Positions 3,001-63,278 of a stretch of 63,662 bases of DNA are shown piece by piece. The DNA comes from a virus: the IMG/VR virus record IMGVR_UViG_3300032799_000186, positions 1 through 63,662 of that record; one strand, 5' to 3'. The notes beneath the pieces were generated by a model. It made no database searches and was not told the origin of the DNA. It saw only the letters and a list, made by a program, of their open reading frames with translations. The position numbers and the translations under genes are program-made. Positions within the stretch are counted from its first letter, which is position 1. Every line of letters starts with the position of its first letter.

Positions 3001-6000
3001 TGAGAACCTGGCCGGCGGGATGAAGGTGGAAGCCAAGCACGTGGCGGCGGCCATCGACCTGCGGCGCCCCAGGTTTGAGGGGGACAACTTTGGCCTGAAG
3101 GTGACGGACATCGCCAAAAAGGCCGAGACCGAGCTGACCAAGCTCCAGCATCTTTTGCACGCGGCCAAGACCGAGGGTGGGACCCACGAGGCCCTGATGG
3201 CGCAGGCCCTGGCGTTTACCTCCACGACTTTGACCCAGCTCAACATGCTGGCGACGGCTTACCCGGGCATGCGGGACAAGCTGCTCGACCCGATGCGCCG
3301 GACGATGATGGAAGTGCCATCCATGGCTCCCAGGTCGGAGCCTACGGCCGAGGGGTCGGTGGCGACCTTGTTCGTGGCCGGTGAAGGTGGGAAGCCCCGG
3401 GCGCTGAAGGCGCGGTATCGGTTGATGGAAGCCAAGGATGTGATTCCCTCCCACGACCCAGAGTCTTTCCAGCCCAACGAGAAGTACCCAACGGGGGTTC
3501 AGGAGCGGGCCTATCACCGGGACAAGGATGAGCAGCAAAAGGTGATTCGGAACGCTACCCGGATGAACGCGGCTTTCCTGATCAACACCAACCCGGACGC
3601 CGTGAACGGCCCGCCCATTGTGACCTCGGACGGGGTGGTCTTGGGTGGTAACAGCCGCACCATGTCGATGCAAAGGGCGTTCAAGACCCAGCCCGACCAG
3701 GCCAAGACCCTGAAGGACTACTTGCGGGATCATGCCTCCGAAGTGGGGCTGACGGCCTACGACGTGGACGCCATGGAGAGCCCGATCTTGGTTCGGATGG
3801 TGGACCTGGAGGACAAGACTCCGAAGGCTTTGCGGACCATGGTCCGGCAGATGAATGAGAACTTTACCCAGGCTTTGGACCCCCGGACTTACCAGGTGGC
3901 GCTCGGGCGCCGGCTGGATACCGAGGCCCTGAATGCCTTGTCAAGCAACATGGTCGAGGATGAGAGCTTGAACGATTTCTTGGCTACCGGGCGGTCCAAG
4001 GTTTTCGTGGATCACCTGTCCAGGGTGGGGGTCATCGACGAGCGGAACAGTAACCAGTACATCAAAAAGGGCACCCGGCAGTTGAACGAAGATGGCAAGG
4101 TTCTGGTGTCCAGAATCTTGGTGGGCAACGTGGTGGACGATGCGGACGTGCTGTCCGACACCCCGCCGAAGTTGTTGACCAGCTTGGCCGGTTGTGTGCC
4201 GTACATGCTCCAGGCCAAGTCCTCTGGACCGGAGTTTGACCTGTCCAACGACCTCCAGACGGCTCTCCATGCCTACAATTATGCGAGGGATATGGCGGAC
4301 GCGGGGAAGGGTCCAGTCCTGGACGCCAACATGCCCGACTGGAGTTTCAATCAGCTATTCGCCCAGCAAAACGTGTTCGGTGAGATTCACCCGGTCACCA
4401 AGAGCGAGCGGGCGATGATCTTGCTGGAGTCCATGATCCGGAAGTCTGGCCCCAGGCAGATGACCCGGATCTTCCGGGAGTACACTAAGGCGGCGTCGTT
4501 GAATCGAACGGATCAGATGTCTCTGGCTGGGCCGGCATTGACCCCCGCGCAGGTGCTGACGTTCTCCATCGAGGCGGCCGGGAAGCGGGACAAGGCCGAG
4601 GCTGAAGCTAAGGCCCAGGCCAAGGCAAAGGCTAAAGCCGGAACAGAGCAGGAAGGATTGTTCAAGGCCCAGCCACAGGCCGGGCCGTTTATCGGACCCA
4701 AGGGTGGGAAGTACGCGGATCCCGAGTTGACCATTTCTTGGCGAGAGCGCACCGGGCGCCAGCCGGCAGCTCAGAAACCGATCCCGACACCTCGGGCACC
4801 GGCGGGTTCTCAGCCTCCAGCCAAGCAACCGATAACGGATGCGCCGGCGGAGGTTCACCAGCAGTACCAGCGGGAGGAAGCGAAAACTCGGGGGGGCCAG
4901 CAAGCGACCGAGAAGCCAAAGACCAAGCGGAACTGGGTAGATCACAAGCCGGGTTTGCCCAAGCAGACCATCGACAAGTACCGGATGGATGAGCCCGATG
5001 GGACGCATTCCTACGTGATGTCTCGGAAGCCGATTCACGACAAGATCCTAGAAGCGTTCATGGGTGGGAAACAACCGGTTCCCAAGGATCGGAAAAAAAC
5101 TGCTTTCGTGATGATGGGTGGACCGGCCAGCGGCAAAACTACTTTGGCAAAACTAATCGCCGGGAAGAAGTTTGGGAAGTTCATAAACGTCAACCCGGAC
5201 GATGTTCGGGAGATGCTGCCTGAATACCAGGAAGCCATTGACTTCAAGGACGATAGTGGCAAGCAGGTTTCGGCTAAGGACGCATCTGCCATGACCCACG
5301 AAGAGGCGTCCGACATCGCAGGTGAAGTTTACAACCGGGCCATTGATGGGAATTTCAATCTTGTGTTTGACGGTACAGGCAAGAACGTGGACAAGCATCG
5401 TGCTCGGGTGGCGTCTTTGAAGGATCATGGCTACCACGTAGTTTTGCTGATGCCTCACCTGGATCTGGAAACGGCCCTGGTGCGGGCTGGAGATCGAGCG
5501 GAGCACAGGGGGCGCACAGTACCTGAGCCTATGATGCGGGAAGCCTACCCCAAGATGCCTGGAAATTTTGAATCGGTAGCCCGAACGGCCGATGAGTTCC
5601 ACCTCTATCACAGTGGAGGCCCTGTTACCAAGCCCCCACAGATTGTCTGGAGCGGTGGAGAGGGCAAGAAGGATAAGGTTCACCACCCAGAGCTATTCCA
5701 GCAATTCCAGGAAGAGGCCAAGCGGTCTCGGGTACTCCAGGGTCGGAAGGAAAACCAAGTGGATCTGGGGCCACCGAAGGGTCCTGTGTCCAGGCATGAG
5801 GCTGGCCTGTCCTACAAGAACCTGAAAAAATCTGGGCCGGTCAGGAGCAAGCTGCCTCCCTTCATGTCCGGCGATGACATTTTGGCGAGATTGCAAGAAA
5901 CCAGCGTGGCCGATGCTGAGGACGATGAGGTGGATCTGAAGGGGACCAAGAAGGCCATGTTCGACCGGGATGTCGGGGCCGACACCCCCATGGGGGATGA

Positions 6001-14177: not shown

Positions 14178-14256
14178 GGACGAAGGAGCCAGGCAAGAGG
14201 CGCTTGCGAACGGGCACAACAAACAAAAGCCCTGACGGGCTGCAAGGAGATTGAAA

Positions 14257-15699
14257 ATGAACGGTAACATGGTGTCTTGGCAGGACTACGAAGGGATCGA
14301 CGGATTCGGATCCGCGACCCAGAGTGACGTGGACGACTTGAACAAGGCCCTGAAGGCCGGTCAGTCCATCAACCCCCCGGGCGGGACGGCGGTCGCCGGC
14401 GACGGCTTCGCGTTGCGCGTCGAGTCGCTGGAGAGAACCCTGAAGAACCTGACCTTCCGGATGGAGCACATCAAGCTGTGGAAGGCCATCAGCAAGTTGG
14501 CCGCCTACAACACCGTGGAAGAACACAACATTCTGTCCTCGTATGGTCAGAATGCGGACGCGGGCTGGATCGATGAGGGCGACTTGCCGAGCGAGGATGA
14601 CTCGACCTACGAGCGGAAGTTCGCCGTGGTCAAGTACATCGGCACCGTCCGTCGGGTGACTCACGTGATGAGCCTGGTTCGCCCGGCCCACCAGAACGTG
14701 ATCGCGCAGGAAACTGTCAATGGAACCATGCACTTACTCCGTGTCCTGGAGAAGTCCCTGTTCAAGGCGCGGAGCGACCTGTCCGCCCTCCAGTTCGACG
14801 GGATCGAGAAGCTGTTGCTGGACAGCGCCCCGGCCGTCAACATCATCGACATGCGCGGCCGTCCCCTCAGCGAGGACGTGCTGACCGACGGCGCCCTGGT
14901 CATCTCGGACGCCCCGAACTACGGCCAGGCGACCGACCTGTTCGTGAACCCCCGCGTCAAGGCCGACCTGGTGAAGGCGTTCTTCCCCAAGGAGCGGTAC
15001 GACCTGTTCAACAAGAAAACCGACGGGCTCGTGGGCCTGGACATCGCGGGCTTCACCTCGCCGGCGGGCGACGTGCGCTTCCAGAGCGACGTGTTCATCG
15101 ACGACGGCGGCGGCGTGCCGGCGGCGGCGGTGGGCGATGTCACCAAGATCCCCGCCACCCCGAACCAGAGCACCCCGGCCACCTCCCCCGGGCCGGAAGC
15201 CCTGAGCTTGTTCGGTGCCGACGATGCCGGTGACTACTACTACCGGGTGGTCGCCTGCAATCGGTTCGGCAAGTCCGCCCCCAAGAGCATCGAAGTGGGC
15301 GTTGTCAACGTGTCGGCGCTCGACAAGGTGATTTTCGGCATGACCCCGGCCACCGCCGTGACGGTGAGCTGGTACGAGGTCTACCGGACCAAGAAGAACG
15401 CCGCCGCCGCGACCGCCCGGCTCATCCTCCGCGTGCCGAACGCGGGCGGGGCTGGGGAGCAGCTCATCAACGACTACAACAACTGGTTGCCCGGTTGCAC
15501 CACCGCGTACCTGCTCCAGCAGAACGCGGAGGCGGTGAGCTTCAAGCAGCTCGCCCCGATGGTCAAGATCCCGTTGGCCACCGTGGACTCCAGCATTCGC
15601 TGGATGCAGTTGATCTACGGCGTCCCGGTCATCTACGCCTACGGGCGTCACGTCCTCTACACGAACGTGGGCCGGGCCGAAGGAAGCGTGGGCGTCTAG
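14257..15699 (+). CDS. Major capsid protein (HK97-fold) with Ig/FN3-like insert
   Basis: The 480-aa protein lies downstream of protease and scaffold. Near its N-terminus, DLNKALKAG is followed by GFALRVESLERTL, a pattern I associate with large-phage capsid proteins. The ATG at 14257 is chosen because AGGAGA ends 6 bases before it. Residues about 310-410 look like an inserted immunoglobulin/fibronectin-like domain (DYYYRVVACNRFGKSAP, VSWYEVYRTK), perhaps surface-displayed. LNKA near residue 30 could be a maturation cut site. Codon use is strongly GC-biased, as expected for a highly expressed gene. Confidence 0.85.
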   Translation: MNGNMVSWQDYEGIDGFGSATQSDVDDLNKALKAGQSINPPGGTAVAGDGFALRVESLERTLKNLTFRMEHIKLWKAISKLAAYNTVEEHNILSSYGQNADAGWIDEGDLPSEDDSTYERKFAVVKYIGTVRRVTHVMSLVRPAHQNVIAQETVNGTMHLLRVLEKSLFKARSDLSALQFDGIEKLLLDSAPAVNIIDMRGRPLSEDVLTDGALVISDAPNYGQATDLFVNPRVKADLVKAFFPKERYDLFNKKTDGLVGLDIAGFTSPAGDVRFQSDVFIDDGGGVPAAAVGDVTKIPATPNQSTPATSPGPEALSLFGADDAGDYYYRVVACNRFGKSAPKSIEVGVVNVSALDKVIFGMTPATAVTVSWYEVYRTKKNAAAATARLILRVPNAGGAGEQLINDYNNWLPGCTTAYLLQQNAEAVSFKQLAPMVKIPLATVDSSIRWMQLIYGVPVIYAYGRHVLYTNVGRAEGSVGV

Positions 15700-53452: not shown

Positions 53453-53876
53453 CCTGACACTCTGGGGAGCCCCAGGAAGGGCCGGGGATACTACCCCCGT
53501 CTGTTCTCCCGGAGACCCCACCCGATGTGCCCAGCCCCTGTCCCTTGGCCAGCCAGCCCCATTCCCAGGGCAACTGCTCAGCCCGACCTTGGCGTTGGAC
53601 CTGGGGCAGAAGGCCAGTTTCTGCGATGAGCGGTTGGATCTGGAGCTGAAGCACGTCAAGGCCGAGGCCAGCATCGACCTGACTCTGGAAAAGCAGCTCC
53701 GGGGAAACGACAAGATCACCTGGGATGCCGAGAAGGCGCTGCTCCTGGATCGCCTGGCCGAAGCCAAAAAGCCGCCCCCCTGGTACACCCATCCAGCTTT
53801 TATTGTCACGATGAGCGTCCTCGCAACTATCGGGTTATCTTACGGAATGTTCGAGTTGGCTACCCGAATCAAGTAG
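53400..53876 (+). CDS. Rz1-position exported protein with C-terminal membrane helix
   Basis: It starts inside the Rz-like gene (53-base overlap, different frame) with AAGGA 8 bases before the ATG. The 158-aa product has a signal-peptide-like start (LFWSVLVLVSSLTLWGAPG), two cysteines in the next 15 residues, and a C-terminal membrane helix (PAFIVTMSVLATIGLSYGMF). It has no clear lipobox. An exported protein anchored at the C-terminus resembles unimolecular-spanin logic more than lipoprotein Rz1, so its exact role is unsure. Confidence 0.6.
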   Translation: MTQLNWRLFWSVLVLVSSLTLWGAPGRAGDTTPVCSPGDPTRCAQPLSLGQPAPFPGQLLSPTLALDLGQKASFCDERLDLELKHVKAEASIDLTLEKQLRGNDKITWDAEKALLLDRLAEAKKPPPWYTHPAFIVTMSVLATIGLSYGMFELATRIK

Positions 53877-58792: not shown

Positions 58793-58978
58793 ATGACCCT
58801 GGTCGAGATCGACGCCGAAATTCGTCGCCTGCAAGCGGAGCGGGATCTGATGCGTGAGGCCATTTGGGCGCGGCAGCAACAAGAGTTCGAACGGGAACGC
58901 CAGGAGCGGATGCAGTTGCGGATCGCGGCGGAGACTGGGGGTCGAAACGAACCGGAACCGGAGGGACTGCGGGTGTGA
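58793..58978 (+). CDS. Small coiled-coil protein between helicase and primase (61 aa)
   Basis: The ATG at 58793 follows GGGAGGA. Almost all of it is one charged helix (IDAEIRRLQAERDLMREAIW, then ARQQQEFERERQER). It overlaps the primase GTG by 4 bases (GTGTGA). It may couple helicase and primase, but no family is recognised. Confidence 0.6.
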   Translation: MTLVEIDAEIRRLQAERDLMREAIWARQQQEFERERQERMQLRIAAETGGRNEPEPEGLRV

Positions 58979-60003
58979 ACCCCCTCATCACCCGAGCCAT
59001 CGAGCTGTTCGACCTGTTGGGCTACGTGATCGATCACGGGGGTGAGGAAGCCCAGGTCAACCAGTGGGCGCTGGTGTGCCCAACTTGTGGAAAAAAGAAA
59101 CTGGTGGTGGATCTCGGGCGGCGGGCTTGGCATTGCTGGGTGTGTGAGCAGTACGGGGCAGCGGATGCCCGCACTGGGAAGCGCCAGGTACTCCAGGGCG
59201 CCGGCGGGCTCATCGACCTGGTGCAATTTCTGGAGGGATGGGATCGAAAACGGGCGGCTGAGTTTGTGCTGGCTCAGACCAATCTCCAGCCCCCAAATCT
59301 GGGGCATATCGACGGGGATCTCCGGGCCAGCGTGGCGAAGGAGCTAGATGGGCTGAGAACATTGCCACAACTTTCTTGCCCAGAATGCACGAAAAAGATT
59401 GACGGCGCTATGCCGTATATGGTACAACGAGGGATAAGCATGGAGGACGTTCGGATGTTCGGTCTGTTTTATTGCGACGGAGGGCGTTACCGGGGAAGGC
59501 TGATCTTCCCGGTGTACGAGGACGGCCGGTTGGTCTACTTCCAGGGCCGGGCGATGTGGGAGTCGAAAGAGCCTGGATTTTTGAAGTCGTTGAACCCGGT
59601 GCGAGAAGAGGGCGCGGGGGTGAGCAGTGAGGTGTTGTTCAACTTGGATCAGGCGCGGTTCGCCGCGAGAGTGGCCATCACCGAAGGCCCCATCGACGCG
59701 GTTCACGTTGGGCCGGATGCGGTTTGTACCTTCGGGAAGAAAATCTCCGCGACCCAGATCGCCAAGATGCTGCGGGCTGGGGTCAAGGCGGTGGATTTGA
59801 TCTGGGATGGCCCGAGTGAGCGGGAGCCCCAGGGCGCCTGGCCGGAGATGTTTGCGGTAGCCCCGACGCTGGCCACGCTGTTCGACACCAGGCTGGTGTT
59901 TGTGCCTCAGAAGGATCCGGGGAGCTGGTCTCGGGCTGAGAACGCTTTTTTCAGGACACAGGGGCGTCCTGTGTCCTCTTTCGCCCAAGTGGCCCGACTC
60001 TAG
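58975..60003 (+). CDS. DnaG-type primase (zinc finger and TOPRIM)
   Basis: GTG start with GGAGGG upstream. The 342-aa product has a CPTC (about 35) and CWVC (about 54) zinc finger, a short RNA-polymerase-like core and a TOPRIM motif VAITEGPIDAVHVGPDA (about 234). It makes RNA primers beside the DnaB-like helicase. It is shorter than bacterial DnaG and lacks an obvious helicase-binding domain, as in other phage primases. An operator-like sequence lies in its coding region at 59399-59420. Confidence 0.85.
   Translation: MNPLITRAIELFDLLGYVIDHGGEEAQVNQWALVCPTCGKKKLVVDLGRRAWHCWVCEQYGAADARTGKRQVLQGAGGLIDLVQFLEGWDRKRAAEFVLAQTNLQPPNLGHIDGDLRASVAKELDGLRTLPQLSCPECTKKIDGAMPYMVQRGISMEDVRMFGLFYCDGGRYRGRLIFPVYEDGRLVYFQGRAMWESKEPGFLKSLNPVREEGAGVSSEVLFNLDQARFAARVAITEGPIDAVHVGPDAVCTFGKKISATQIAKMLRAGVKAVDLIWDGPSEREPQGAWPEMFAVAPTLATLFDTRLVFVPQKDPGSWSRAENAFFRTQGRPVSSFAQVARL
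59399..59420 (+). promoter_or_regulatory. Operator-like sequence inside the primase gene
   Basis: TGACGGC..TATGCCGTATAT here matches the regulon promoters at 61735 with two changes in the centre and one at the end. There is no matching -35 at the proper distance. It encodes DGAMPYM, so coincidence or a decoy/roadblock site are both possible. Confidence 0.4.
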
Positions 60004-60022: not shown

Positions 60023-60283
60023 ATGACCAAGGAAGCGATTTTGGGACCCAGTGCTGACCGAGTAAAAACTGATATGCGAATGCCCCAGTTGCTGGTGAAG
60101 CGGGTCAAGGAGATGTCCGAGGTGCTGGGGGTGCCCCAAAACGCCCTCTACGCCATGGGGGTAGCTTTGTTGCTGGTGACCATGGTCCCGATGGTTCATC
60201 CTGGGAAAAAGCGGATCCAGATGCTCCGGGAGCTGGGGGAACTGTTTCGGAACGTGATTTCTGGGGCTGAAAAAACAGCATAG
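60023..60283 (+). CDS. Ribbon-helix-helix transcription regulator
   Basis: The 86-aa protein carries an Arc/CopG-type RHH unit: strand VKTDMRMPQ (14-22), helix A LLVKRVKEMSEVLG, turn VPQNA, helix B LYAMGVALLLVTM. RHH dimers bind short palindromes by their strands. It is translated from GAGGAGAGCG, and the first copy of the 17-bp palindromic promoter lies 46 bases after its stop. It is therefore the best candidate to control the three downstream promoters. Target binding is inference. Confidence 0.7.
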   Translation: MTKEAILGPSADRVKTDMRMPQLLVKRVKEMSEVLGVPQNALYAMGVALLLVTMVPMVHPGKKRIQMLRELGELFRNVISGAEKTA

Positions 60284-60328
60284 TTATCTTGTAGTTGCAA
60301 AGAATCGACATCAACCGTCGTTTTTTTG

Positions 60329-60357
60329 TTGACAAGTACGGCATTATGCCGTACAAT
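60329..60357 (+). promoter_or_regulatory. Promoter P1 with palindromic operator
   Basis: TTGACA (60329-60334), 17 bases, TACAAT (60352-60357). A perfect palindrome TACGGCATTATGCCGTA (60337-60353) fills the spacer. The preceding T7 run follows a weak CGAC/GTCG stem (60306-60320) that might end the upstream unit. Drives gene 60394. Confidence 0.8.
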
Positions 60358-60393
60358 GGGATCGGAAGGTAGGAAACAAGAACGGAGGATCCC

Positions 60394-61680
60394 ATGAATC
60401 GCTTTTCCGGTCACGACAAGCGGGTGACGCTGCACCTGGCGCTGCACAGTGCGGTCGCCAGAACTATTCCGGGACTCATCGAGGCCCTGGGGGCGACGGA
60501 GGCGGCTGGCTGGGACCTGGCGCTTGTCCCCCAGGCGGCGGTCGAGGTGATTTACGCCACTTTCGATGAGGCTTTCGAGAAACTGGTGGTGTCGGAGTTC
60601 GAGGCCGATCCCAGTTACCTCATCGACCTGGGTACTGGGTGCCCGGGAACGTGCCCCCTTTGCGGGCACAACCCCATTCGCTGGGTGTTCCGCGTGGTGA
60701 ACCACCGAGAGGGTGGCAGCGCGGTGGAGTGCGGGTCCGAGTGCATCGTGACTTGGGGAATTTCGGTGAAAGGTGCTGAGACCGCTGAGGCGGCTCGGGC
60801 CATCCTGGAGTCCCAGATTCGCAAGGCGATTCGCCGCCTGCTCATCGAGGGGTGGCACAAAGAGACAGGGTTCAGCGCCGGGTGGTTTGCGGCAACTTTC
60901 GAGTCCCTGGAGCGGATCCGGGCGCATCGGGAGCTGCCCTACAACGTGAGGAATGGCGCCTGGCACAAGCGGCGTGACATGCGGAAACTGGAGCGGTTCT
61001 ACAACAGGACTGGCTGGTTGAACACCGAGATCCGGTGGAATGAGCTGGCCAGAATCGTGAACTTCTGCCGGGCCAACGACACGGAGATCAAGCTGCCTTT
61101 CCTGGCCCCCTTTGTTCCCAAGGCGGCGGCCACCAAGGCGGCCATCGAGGCGGGGACGATCAAGACCGAGGCTCTGGCCCCCAAGGGCAAGCCGGTGGAT
61201 GTCAGACCGGTGGGTACACTGGAGTTGCCGCTGTCTCCGAAGGTCGAGGCGGCGCCGGAGGTCGAGATGGTGCCCGAGATTATCACCCCCATCTATCCCG
61301 AGCCCGAGATGGACGCGGAGGCGGCGGCTCGGGAGGCCGAGCTGGCTTGGGTGCGGGAGCAGGCGGCGAAGGACGAGCCCATCAACGACGGTGCCCCTTA
61401 TGCCCCGGGTGAGGAGGCCAAAGTGGTGGCGGCGTTTGAAGTGACGGACGTGATGAGCATTCTGGGCAAGGCCCTGGTGGACGCGGCGGATGCGGCCTTG
61501 ACCCAGGCGGCGGACCTGGCCGAGTGCAAGCTGGCGAAACTGGAGTCCGAGGCCGATGGCGGGATCACCCTGGATGACAGGGTTCCCGAGTATGCCCCCC
61601 CGCCGTCGGTTCCGAAGTCGGCCCAGTTGGCTCTGGACTTCAGCGCGGTGTGCCGGGAACTGGTTTTTCGTGCTAAGTAA
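60394..61680 (+). CDS. Zinc-ribbon protein of the palindrome regulon (428 aa)
   Basis: No family is recognised. Residues 83-117 hold a cysteine set (CPGTCPLC, then ECGSEC) with H104, probably a zinc ribbon. Helical sequence follows, then a long Ala/Glu/Pro-rich acidic part (about 270-400), probably flexible. First gene behind promoter P1, preceded by CGGAGGA. The acidic tail suggests interaction with a nucleic-acid enzyme, but that is guesswork. Confidence 0.65.
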   Translation: MNRFSGHDKRVTLHLALHSAVARTIPGLIEALGATEAAGWDLALVPQAAVEVIYATFDEAFEKLVVSEFEADPSYLIDLGTGCPGTCPLCGHNPIRWVFRVVNHREGGSAVECGSECIVTWGISVKGAETAEAARAILESQIRKAIRRLLIEGWHKETGFSAGWFAATFESLERIRAHRELPYNVRNGAWHKRRDMRKLERFYNRTGWLNTEIRWNELARIVNFCRANDTEIKLPFLAPFVPKAAATKAAIEAGTIKTEALAPKGKPVDVRPVGTLELPLSPKVEAAPEVEMVPEIITPIYPEPEMDAEAAAREAELAWVREQAAKDEPINDGAPYAPGEEAKVVAAFEVTDVMSILGKALVDAADAALTQAADLAECKLAKLESEADGGITLDDRVPEYAPPPSVPKSAQLALDFSAVCRELVFRAK

Positions 61681-61725
61681 CCGTAACAACTGTGAAACAA
61701 ATCTTCCAGAAAGTGCATTTTTTCC

Positions 61726-61755
61726 TTGACAAGTGACGGCATTATGCCGTATATT
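61726..61755 (+). promoter_or_regulatory. Promoter P2 with palindromic operator
   Basis: TTGACA (61726-61731), 18 bases, TATATT (61750-61755). ACGGCATTATGCCGT (61736-61750) is the palindrome. A T-rich run precedes it. Because the promoter overlaps codons that would lie upstream, the CobS-like gene must start at 61786. Confidence 0.85.
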
Positions 61756-61785
61756 GAAGGTGGAGAGAGAAAGGGAGGTCACACC

Positions 61786-62712
61786 ATGGATCGCAAGCCC
61801 GTCGCCATCAAGGTCGAGACCGTCATCATCCCGGGGACCACCGTCCAGATGGAGCGTCTGGTGGGTTTCAGCCACCCGATGATTCCGAAGGTGGATCCGA
61901 CCTACGTATTCCGCCAGGATCTCTGCGAAGAGGTGGGCTACGCCCTCAAGAATGGAACCAACTGCCTTCTGGTGGGTGACACCGGTGACGGCAAGACCTC
62001 GTTGATCGTCCAGCTTGCGGCGTTCCTGAACCGACCTTGCTGTCGCATCAACGTCAACGGCCAGAGCGACCCGGCCATCCTGATCGGTCGGGACATGCCG
62101 GCCGAGGTGGATGGCACCCGGATGCTGACTTACCGCTGGGGTCCGCTGGCCAAGATGATGACTCAGCCTTACGGCTGGTTCATCCTGGACGAGATGGACG
62201 CGGCTCAGCCCGGGGTTCTCCTGGTGCTCCAACAAATGCTGGAGCGTGGCGGGAAGCTGACCCTGGAGGACGCGGCGGCGACTGTGGTCGAGCGGGCTGC
62301 GGGCTTCATGTTCTTCGCCACGGGTAACACGATGGGGATCGCCGGCCGGCACCGGACAATGTACGCCGGGACCAACAGGTGCAACGAGGCCACCCTGGAT
62401 CGGTTTGATTGTGTTATCCACGTGACTGAGATGGATGCCAAATTGGAGGAAGAGGTGGTGGCGGCCAACGCCCCCGGGCTCGACCGGGACTTCGTGAAGG
62501 CTATCATTCGGATCGCCAAGGAGGTCCGGGACCAGCTCCGGGATGACCAGCTCTCTTGCACGTTCTCAACCCGGCGCTGCATCCAGTGGGCTCAGGCGAT
62601 GCGGACGTTCCACCCCCTCCGGGCCGCCAGGCTGAGCGTGCTCAACAAGCTAAACGCTGAGGACTGCAAGGTTCTGGAGGGTGTGATTCAGCGGTACTTC
62701 GGAACCCCCTAG
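61786..62712 (+). CDS. CobS/MoxR-type AAA+ ATPase
   Basis: The 308-aa protein has Walker A GDTGDGKT (64-71), Walker B FILDEMD (132-138), a sensor FFATGNTMG and an RHRTMYAGT segment followed by DRFDCVIHV. It is typical of MoxR/CobS ATPases that work with von Willebrand-domain partners. ATG 61786 follows GGGAGG. With the CobT-like gene at 63302 it forms the phage CobS/CobT pair, whose job in phages is unclear; it may be a chaperone-like remodelling complex. Confidence 0.85.
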   Translation: MDRKPVAIKVETVIIPGTTVQMERLVGFSHPMIPKVDPTYVFRQDLCEEVGYALKNGTNCLLVGDTGDGKTSLIVQLAAFLNRPCCRINVNGQSDPAILIGRDMPAEVDGTRMLTYRWGPLAKMMTQPYGWFILDEMDAAQPGVLLVLQQMLERGGKLTLEDAAATVVERAAGFMFFATGNTMGIAGRHRTMYAGTNRCNEATLDRFDCVIHVTEMDAKLEEEVVAANAPGLDRDFVKAIIRIAKEVRDQLRDDQLSCTFSTRRCIQWAQAMRTFHPLRAARLSVLNKLNAEDCKVLEGVIQRYFGTP

Positions 62713-62722
62713 GGAGGGCGCC

Positions 62723-63229
62723 ATGAACAGCAGAGAGGGCACCATGAATGCGCTGCTACGATATGATTTGGGGGATGATGCCACTTGGGTAGCCAAGGTG
62801 GAAAAGGTGGGGGAGGACTTTAGACTGAAGATTGCCCACTTTCGGAAGATAGGTTCGCCTGGGGATTCTGATATGGGGGACAAATGGCAGGAAGCTGGTG
62901 TGTTCAAGACTGGGGTGGCGGTGGTCAAGTATGTGCGAGACCTGGCCGCCAAGAAGTTCCCGGATTGGAAACCCACGGTGGACACCTTGGACACGATCAA
63001 GCACCGGACGGCCCAGAGCGTGACCCCGGATTGCTACAGCCCCGTTCCCGAGGGGTCAAAGGCTGGTGGTCGGGGTGACATCGGATGCAAGACTTGCCCT
63101 TACCGCTCGGGGTGCGGTGACCCGGCGTTGGTGAATTTGGGGGCGAAGTTGACGGATCAGGAGAATGAAGGAGATTTCCTGACTCGTTTGCAGCGTAAGG
63201 TGGCGAAAGCCTACGGAAAGAAAAGTTGA
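62723..63229 (+). CDS. Cysteine-cluster protein next to the CobS-like ATPase (168 aa)
   Basis: No family is recognised. The N-terminal 100 residues are alpha/beta (AVVKYVRDLAAKKFPDWKPT). The C-terminal part has four cysteines (DCYSPVPEG, then CKTCPYRSGC), a zinc or iron-sulphur pattern related to the 56735 product. AGGGAGGG supports the start; it is co-transcribed with the ATPase from P2. Confidence 0.6.
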   Translation: MNSREGTMNALLRYDLGDDATWVAKVEKVGEDFRLKIAHFRKIGSPGDSDMGDKWQEAGVFKTGVAVVKYVRDLAAKKFPDWKPTVDTLDTIKHRTAQSVTPDCYSPVPEGSKAGGRGDIGCKTCPYRSGCGDPALVNLGAKLTDQENEGDFLTRLQRKVAKAYGKKS

Positions 63230-63248
63230 GTTTCTAGAACGATTTTTC

Positions 63249-63278
63249 TTGACAAGTGCCGGCATTATGCCGTATATT
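63249..63278 (+). promoter_or_regulatory. Promoter P3 with palindromic operator
   Basis: TTGACA (63249-63254), 18 bases, TATATT (63273-63278), with CGGCATTATGCCG (63260-63272) in the spacer. A T5 run precedes the -35. Drives the CobT-like gene at 63302. Confidence 0.85.

Follow-up and report, generated by a model that had tools for sequence, protein, structure and literature searches.

The IMG/VR virus record IMGVR_UViG_3300032799_000186, a partial record of 63,662 bases analysed here over its full length (the window), carries towards one end three promoters with the same inverted repeat, the first of which follows the gene of an 86-amino-acid putative ribbon-helix-helix (RHH) protein. The favoured reading, to which a probability of about 0.75 is given on sequence comparison, is that this protein is a phage-encoded, Arc-like RHH repressor of several promoters that share one operator and would be switched as one circuit. 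The features concerned are:

60023..60283, plus strand: RHH protein, 86 amino acids, candidate repressor (alignment of eight sequences, helix layout of the AlphaFold2 (AF2) model, Foldseek list)
60329..60357, plus strand: promoter 1, TTGACA-17-TACAAT (promoter scans; the position after the RHH gene is the same in 8/8 phages, the promoter being weaker in some)
60337..60353, no strand: operator 1, TACGGCATTATGCCGTA, 14/14
61726..61755, plus strand: promoter 2, TTGACA-18-TATATT (promoter scans)
61735..61751, no strand: operator 2, GACGGCATTATGCCGTA, 13/14
63249..63278, plus strand: promoter 3, TTGACA-18-TATATT (promoter scans)
63258..63274, no strand: operator 3, GCCGGCATTATGCCGTA, 12/14

The three promoters are of the sigma-70 type and the strongest in the window, being the only ones for which a whole-window scan found a perfect TTGACA together with a -10 box of at least 5/6; promoter-like sites in the region number 4, against 0.9 expected in shuffles. 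The original prediction had described them as sharing TTGACA, an upstream T-rich run, a palindrome in the spacer and a -10 box joined to it, and this was confirmed for all three (TTGACA at 60329, 61726 and 63249). Their spacers measure 17, 18 and 18 bp and their -10 boxes read TACAAT, TATATT and TATATT, respectively; T-runs stand immediately 5' of each, and the last TA of the palindrome serves as the first TA of the -10 box. The search of the whole contig for the palindrome, which the same prediction had proposed, returned CGGCATTATGCCG in exactly three copies (60339, 61737 and 63260), each within a promoter, and no further site at 0 or 1 mismatch anywhere in the 63.7-kb contig. The palindrome is longer than the 13 bp first reported, the full inverted repeat being 17 bp, TACGGCA-TTA-TGCCGTA, which at all three promoters lies within the -35/-10 spacer and overlaps the -10 box. 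The RHH gene does lie upstream of the first palindrome, but its stop codon (60283) precedes TTGACA by 45 bases and the 17-bp repeat by 53, not 46. With the arms taken as ACGGCA-N3-TGCCGT and at least 11/12 bases matching, 4 sites occur in the window against 0.15 expected under a Markov model, the fourth lying within the primase gene.

The operator was then found in related phages. An IMG/VR scan with the pattern TTGACA-N4/5-CGGCA-N3-TGCCGTA gave 7 contigs, and a second scan, with the operator joined to the -10 box, gave more; among them, three long contigs encode homologues of the RHH protein, namely G006 (109 kb, E=3e-36), G007 (97 kb, E=3e-43) and G013 (110 kb, E=2e-17), all of which are collinear with the window across the structural and replication genes. 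The closest relative, L007 (11 kb; also designated G001), has the primase, the RHH protein, a homologue of the 428-amino-acid protein and CobS in the order of the window, and retains the two promoters and, apart from one changed base, the arms of their operators, the centres being changed to CCT and AAA (TACGGCA-CCT-TGCCGTA and TACGGCA-AAA-TGGCGTA). Three further phages, L109, L112 and L113, were recovered by the RHH protein search alone, with no operator criterion. In all eight phages (the window, G001, G006, G007, G013, L109, L112 and L113), which come from several separate metagenomes, the RHH gene stands directly after the primase gene, and next to it comes a promoter-like element whose spacer holds an inverted repeat; this element scores 11/14 in L112 and 12/14 in L113, and in L109 is a variant, ATACCGGC-N5-GCCGGTAT, with one half-site shifted by one base. 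A single-sequence RHH protein search found no homologues, an alignment being needed for this; a wider RHH alignment gave no additional homologues, and a nucleotide search of phage records gave no matches.

The operators of the relatives stand before several genes. At the left end of G006, four operator-promoters precede genes for a 108-amino-acid protein, an ADP-ribosylglycohydrolase, a 275-amino-acid Cys-rich protein and a PHP-domain protein, and a fifth, degenerate one (~10/14) precedes CobS. Of those in G013, four are good and precede a PHP-domain protein, an 83-amino-acid open reading frame (ORF) followed by RadC, a 69-amino-acid ORF and a 404-amino-acid Cys protein, while the promoter directly after its RHH gene is poor; G007 has one, before CobS. 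The gene of the PHP phosphoesterase is thus preceded by the operator in both G006 and G013. The register of the operators relative to the -10 box is constant at all sites, and several promoters of one genome carry the motif (3 in the window, 4-5 in G006 and 4-5 in G013). The 18 aligned sites hold 20.8 bits in total, nearly all of it in the arms and almost none in the centre; the -35 box and the flanks also vary between the phages, with the arms retained. Perfect 12/12 arms occur 6 times in G013 against 0.05 expected, and 3, 2, 2 and 1 times in G006, the window, G001 and G007, against about zero expected. The proposal of a shared operator acting in one circuit gains comparative support, and the palindrome extends beyond the three promoters that this partial contig shows.

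The candidate regulator has the predicted layout of an RHH protein: a predicted beta strand R13-V-K15-T-D17-M-R19-M-P21, helices at 22-35 and 39-58, and an extra C-terminal helix at 62-85. Among the eight aligned homologues, with identity as low as 26%, the residues R13, K15, D17, R19, P21, L35, P38, N40, A41 and R64 are invariant (alignment A7), so that both the alternating strand residues expected to read the DNA and the turn before helix B (P38, N40, A41) are conserved. The AF2 monomer has an extended stretch at 13-20, to which no strand was assigned, and helices at 22-35 and 39-58, with moderate confidence (predicted local distance difference test, pLDDT, 73-78); the Foldseek list is rich in RHH proteins (Arc, CopG, MazE6, Reg576, VapB and CdbA), each match being weak (E>1), while the fold search with the first AF2 model returned nothing informative. 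Because of the conserved strand and turn, the modelled helices and the Foldseek list, the assignment as an RHH protein is convincing, although not proof. Its identity as a TacA1/DUF1778 antitoxin was ruled out, since none of the eight phage members matches the PF08681 profile and no GNAT toxin gene lies directly 3' of the phage RHH gene, where the 428-amino-acid protein, CobS or others are encoded.

The same operator is found in bacteria. When bacterial genomes were scanned with the 20-base promoter-operator, matches lay 24-73 bp before the genes of TacA1/DUF1778 (PF08681) antitoxins, which are RHH proteins, in Methylovulum, Oscillochloris, Bryobacterales, Phycisphaerae and others, that is, in several bacterial phyla, and two viral contigs have it before such antitoxin genes as well; the remaining bacterial matches comprised a single element repeated in clostridia and one or two that could not be assigned. 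Many Ruminiclostridium/Ruminococcus matches were set aside as one repeated element lacking a -10 box. As an observation of its own, the Ruminiclostridium/Ruminococcus metagenome-assembled genomes L042, L047, L048, L050-L053, L055, L056 and L058-L060 hold many copies of TTGACACCCTACGGCACGATGCCGTAAGGAAGTTTCC, which looks like a dispersed repeat.

The TacA1/DUF1778 antitoxins have R-L-E-A-R as their DNA-reading strand and the phage protein has K-T-D-M-R, with K15, D17 and R19 unchanged in all homologues; a profile comparison places the phage K15-D17-R19 in register with the TacA R-E-R, although its probability is just 21%. The relation between strand and operator was followed in two genome samples, which together gave 46 distinct PF08681 loci, the operator being scored as at least 11/14 within 200 bp upstream and the triads being read by alignment. 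Of the loci whose triad was [RK]-x-[ED]-x-[RK], 11/19 had it, against 0/27 of those with other triads (Fisher P=5.7e-6), or 10/18 against 0/27 with the exclusion of L096, a positive locus whose genome had been chosen for its operator. Among the TacA1/DUF1778 antitoxin loci (L084-L108 and L115-L142), the triads without the TACGG-N7-CCGTA operator were RNR, SNR, RTR and RGR. KacA of Klebsiella (R-I-D-L-R) has TGTACGGAAAATAACCGTACA upstream, i.e., TACGG-N7-CCGTA. In the work on MazE6 and AtaR, the specificity of RHH proteins was located in the beta-strand (PMC9477884). The pairing of the triad [RK]-x-[ED]-x-[RK] with this operator is possibly an RHH specificity code.

The triad-operator correlation and the operators following those homologues that were found by protein alone make the RHH protein the best candidate for the operator, on correlative evidence, and its nomination as repressor in the original prediction is to that extent upheld. 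That the operator equals the one of bacterial TacA1/DUF1778 antitoxins could also mean that a host regulator, such as a TacA-type RHH antitoxin, binds the phage promoters, the phage using it or being restrained by it, and that the phage RHH protein has another job. This seems unlikely, since the RHH gene accompanies the primase in 8/8 phages with the strand K-x-D-x-R invariant and the inverted-repeat promoter element follows it in each, and phages from separate metagenomes would all need hosts with the same antitoxin. Recognition by a different phage DNA-binding protein, e.g., one of the helix-turn-helix type, is given little credence: the 7-3-7 symmetry would suit a lambda-type repressor as well, and no function is assigned to some of the small proteins conserved in the family, but none of the shared small proteins that were tested matches a DNA-binding family, and the correlation of triad and operator in an unrelated RHH family points to recognition by an RHH protein.

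Several observations weigh against the repressor reading. The phages are one family with many genes in common, so that the RHH gene cannot be picked out by co-occurrence alone, and it is for this relatedness that its link to the operator needed the further tests described above. The RHH protein has no Pfam match and no single significant structure match in Foldseek. The operon of the RHH gene was not itself found to have an operator-promoter upstream. Some of the operators are degenerate (the one before CobS in G006, that of L112, and the shifted variant of L109), the promoter behind the RHH gene of G013 is poor, and for certain viral contigs with the pattern (L008, L009 and others) no RHH homologue was found.

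Under the repressor reading, a dimer of the RHH protein would read the half-sites TACGGC/GCCGTA of the 17-bp operator with K15, D17 and R19 of the beta-ribbon of each subunit, and, as the operator fills the -35/-10 spacer and overlaps the -10 box, the bound protein would exclude the host RNA polymerase. The window promoters, i.e., those of the 428-amino-acid Cys protein, of CobS with the 168-amino-acid ORF, and of CobT, would be switched off together, and likewise in the related phages those of the PHP phosphoesterase, ADP-ribosylglycohydrolase, the 404-amino-acid Cys protein and others. Because the RHH gene is the last of a helicase-DnaB-primase run, repression probably rises with the expression of the replication genes. 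Repression is preferred to activation because the operator covers the spacer and the -10 box; that the RHH protein binds the operator and activates, or both represses and activates, would suit the weaker -35 boxes of several G006/G013 promoters (TTGCAT, TTGCTA, TTGCAA) but is improbable with spacers of 17-18 bp, near-consensus boxes and an operator over the -10 box, a layout typical of repression. It is most improbable that the sites arose by copying a single promoter cassette with a palindrome to which no protein binds. The near-identity of the three window copies over 30 bp would suit this, but across the phages it is the arms that are kept, with variation in the 3-bp centre, the -35 box and the flanks, the copies precede unrelated genes, and the same arms stand before antitoxin genes in other phyla.

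The fourth operator-like site of the window may bear on the regulation of the repressor itself:

58864..60003, plus strand: DNA primase, start codon uncertain (phrog_47, E=3e-35), directly 5' of the RHH gene
59401..59417, no strand: operator-like copy within the primase gene, GACGGCGCTATGCCGTA, 11/12 arm bases

The primase is 48-80% identical to its counterparts in G001, G006, G007 and G013. The copy precedes the operator behind the RHH gene by ~0.9 kb, and it recurs at homologous codons, with 11 or 12 of 12 arm bases, in 6/8 phages (elsewhere at 7399 in L007, 6615 in L013, 87736 in G006 and 27584 in G013); L112 has a 10/12 copy nearby, judged by eye as its row was misaligned in the test, and the L113 primase has no operator-like copy. 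With the peptide held fixed, synonymous resampling over the first five phages together gave P=6e-4, and over all eight a smaller value, the phages being treated as independent, though they are related; codon choice at the GxLPY motif accounts for part of the excess. These copies suggest, as a hypothesis, a feedback in which the RHH protein may damp its own operon.

The genes behind the three promoters are:

60394..61680, plus strand: 428-amino-acid protein in which a Cys cluster (C83, C87, C90, C113, C117) is conserved, candidate target gene 1
61786..62712, plus strand: CobS-like AAA+ ATPase, 308 amino acids, candidate target gene 2 (phrog_249, E=3.8e-49; CbbQ_C, E=3e-10)
62723..63229, plus strand: 168-amino-acid ORF between CobS and promoter 3, with a relative in L007
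63302..63662, plus strand: CobT-like protein, the N-terminal 120 amino acids, cut by the contig end, candidate target gene 3 (Pfam CobT, E=1.1e-7; phrog_1576, E=5e-14)

The CobS-like and CobT-like identities proposed earlier are borne out by these profile matches. The label of a zinc-ribbon protein for the first gene agrees with the conserved Cys cluster, but profile searches gave no family match and no Pfam support for a zinc ribbon. The three genes named behind the promoters stand, while the 168-amino-acid ORF, which is likely co-transcribed with CobS, had not been mentioned. The 428-amino-acid protein and the product of the 404-amino-acid gene near 53734 of G013 both have a CxxC...C cluster and an operator-bearing promoter, and they are possibly distant relatives.

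Among the other viral contigs, an exact search for the 13-bp palindrome with TTGACA gave a single match, L006, an AT-rich contig, which was dismissed as chance; the matches in L010 and L011, which fall within or next to reading frames, likewise look like chance. The 44-kb phage L008 has TTGACA-operator-TAGTAT at 5035-5059, before a 65-amino-acid ORF resembling a helix-turn-helix protein, and the AT-rich contigs L061, L065, L070, L072 and L073 share a near-identical ACGGCAGATTGCCGTATATTC element, with no RHH homologue found in them.

If the repressor reading holds, an uncultivated, SPO1-related family of tailed phages gains a candidate transcriptional switch with a named regulator, operator and targets, including the CobS/CobT-like genes, and a testable protein-DNA code, in which the beta-strand [RK]-x-[ED]-x-R reads TACGG/CCGTA, would predict the operators of many bacterial toxin-antitoxin operons. 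A bolder and rather doubtful extension is that the phage repressor and the TacA-type antitoxins share the operator code, allowing phage-host cross-talk, and that the primase operator is a feedback roadblock tying the repressor supply to the transcription of the replication genes; were this true, host antitoxins might repress phage promoters, or the phage protein might repress host toxin-antitoxin operons.

Compared with known systems, the phage resembles the SPO1-like phages (Herelleviridae) in its major capsid protein (window 14251-15699, ~38% identical) and differs from them in its RHH and 428-amino-acid proteins, for which no relatives were found among 50,697 phage records. The antitoxins TacA, AtaR and KacA (PF08681, DUF1778) have in common with the phage protein the 17-bp operator TACGG-N7-CCGTA, the promoter register and the triad [RK]-x-[ED]-x-R; unlike them, the phage protein lacks the PF08681 match and an adjoining GNAT toxin gene, and it would have many targets instead of the self-regulation of one operon. 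Arc and Mnt of phage P22 are small phage-encoded RHH repressors with operators inside promoters, as is suggested here, but they belong to the immunity region of a temperate phage with few operators, whereas the gene of the candidate repressor is replication-linked, and the protein would act at single, scattered operators, as many as five or six of them, has one more helix at its C-terminus and shows no detectable match to a sequence family. SvtR and AvtR are RHH repressors of archaeal viruses that control several viral promoters, and the present protein is likened to them, by description and not by sequence, as a viral RHH protein with several viral promoters, theirs belonging to archaeal hosts.

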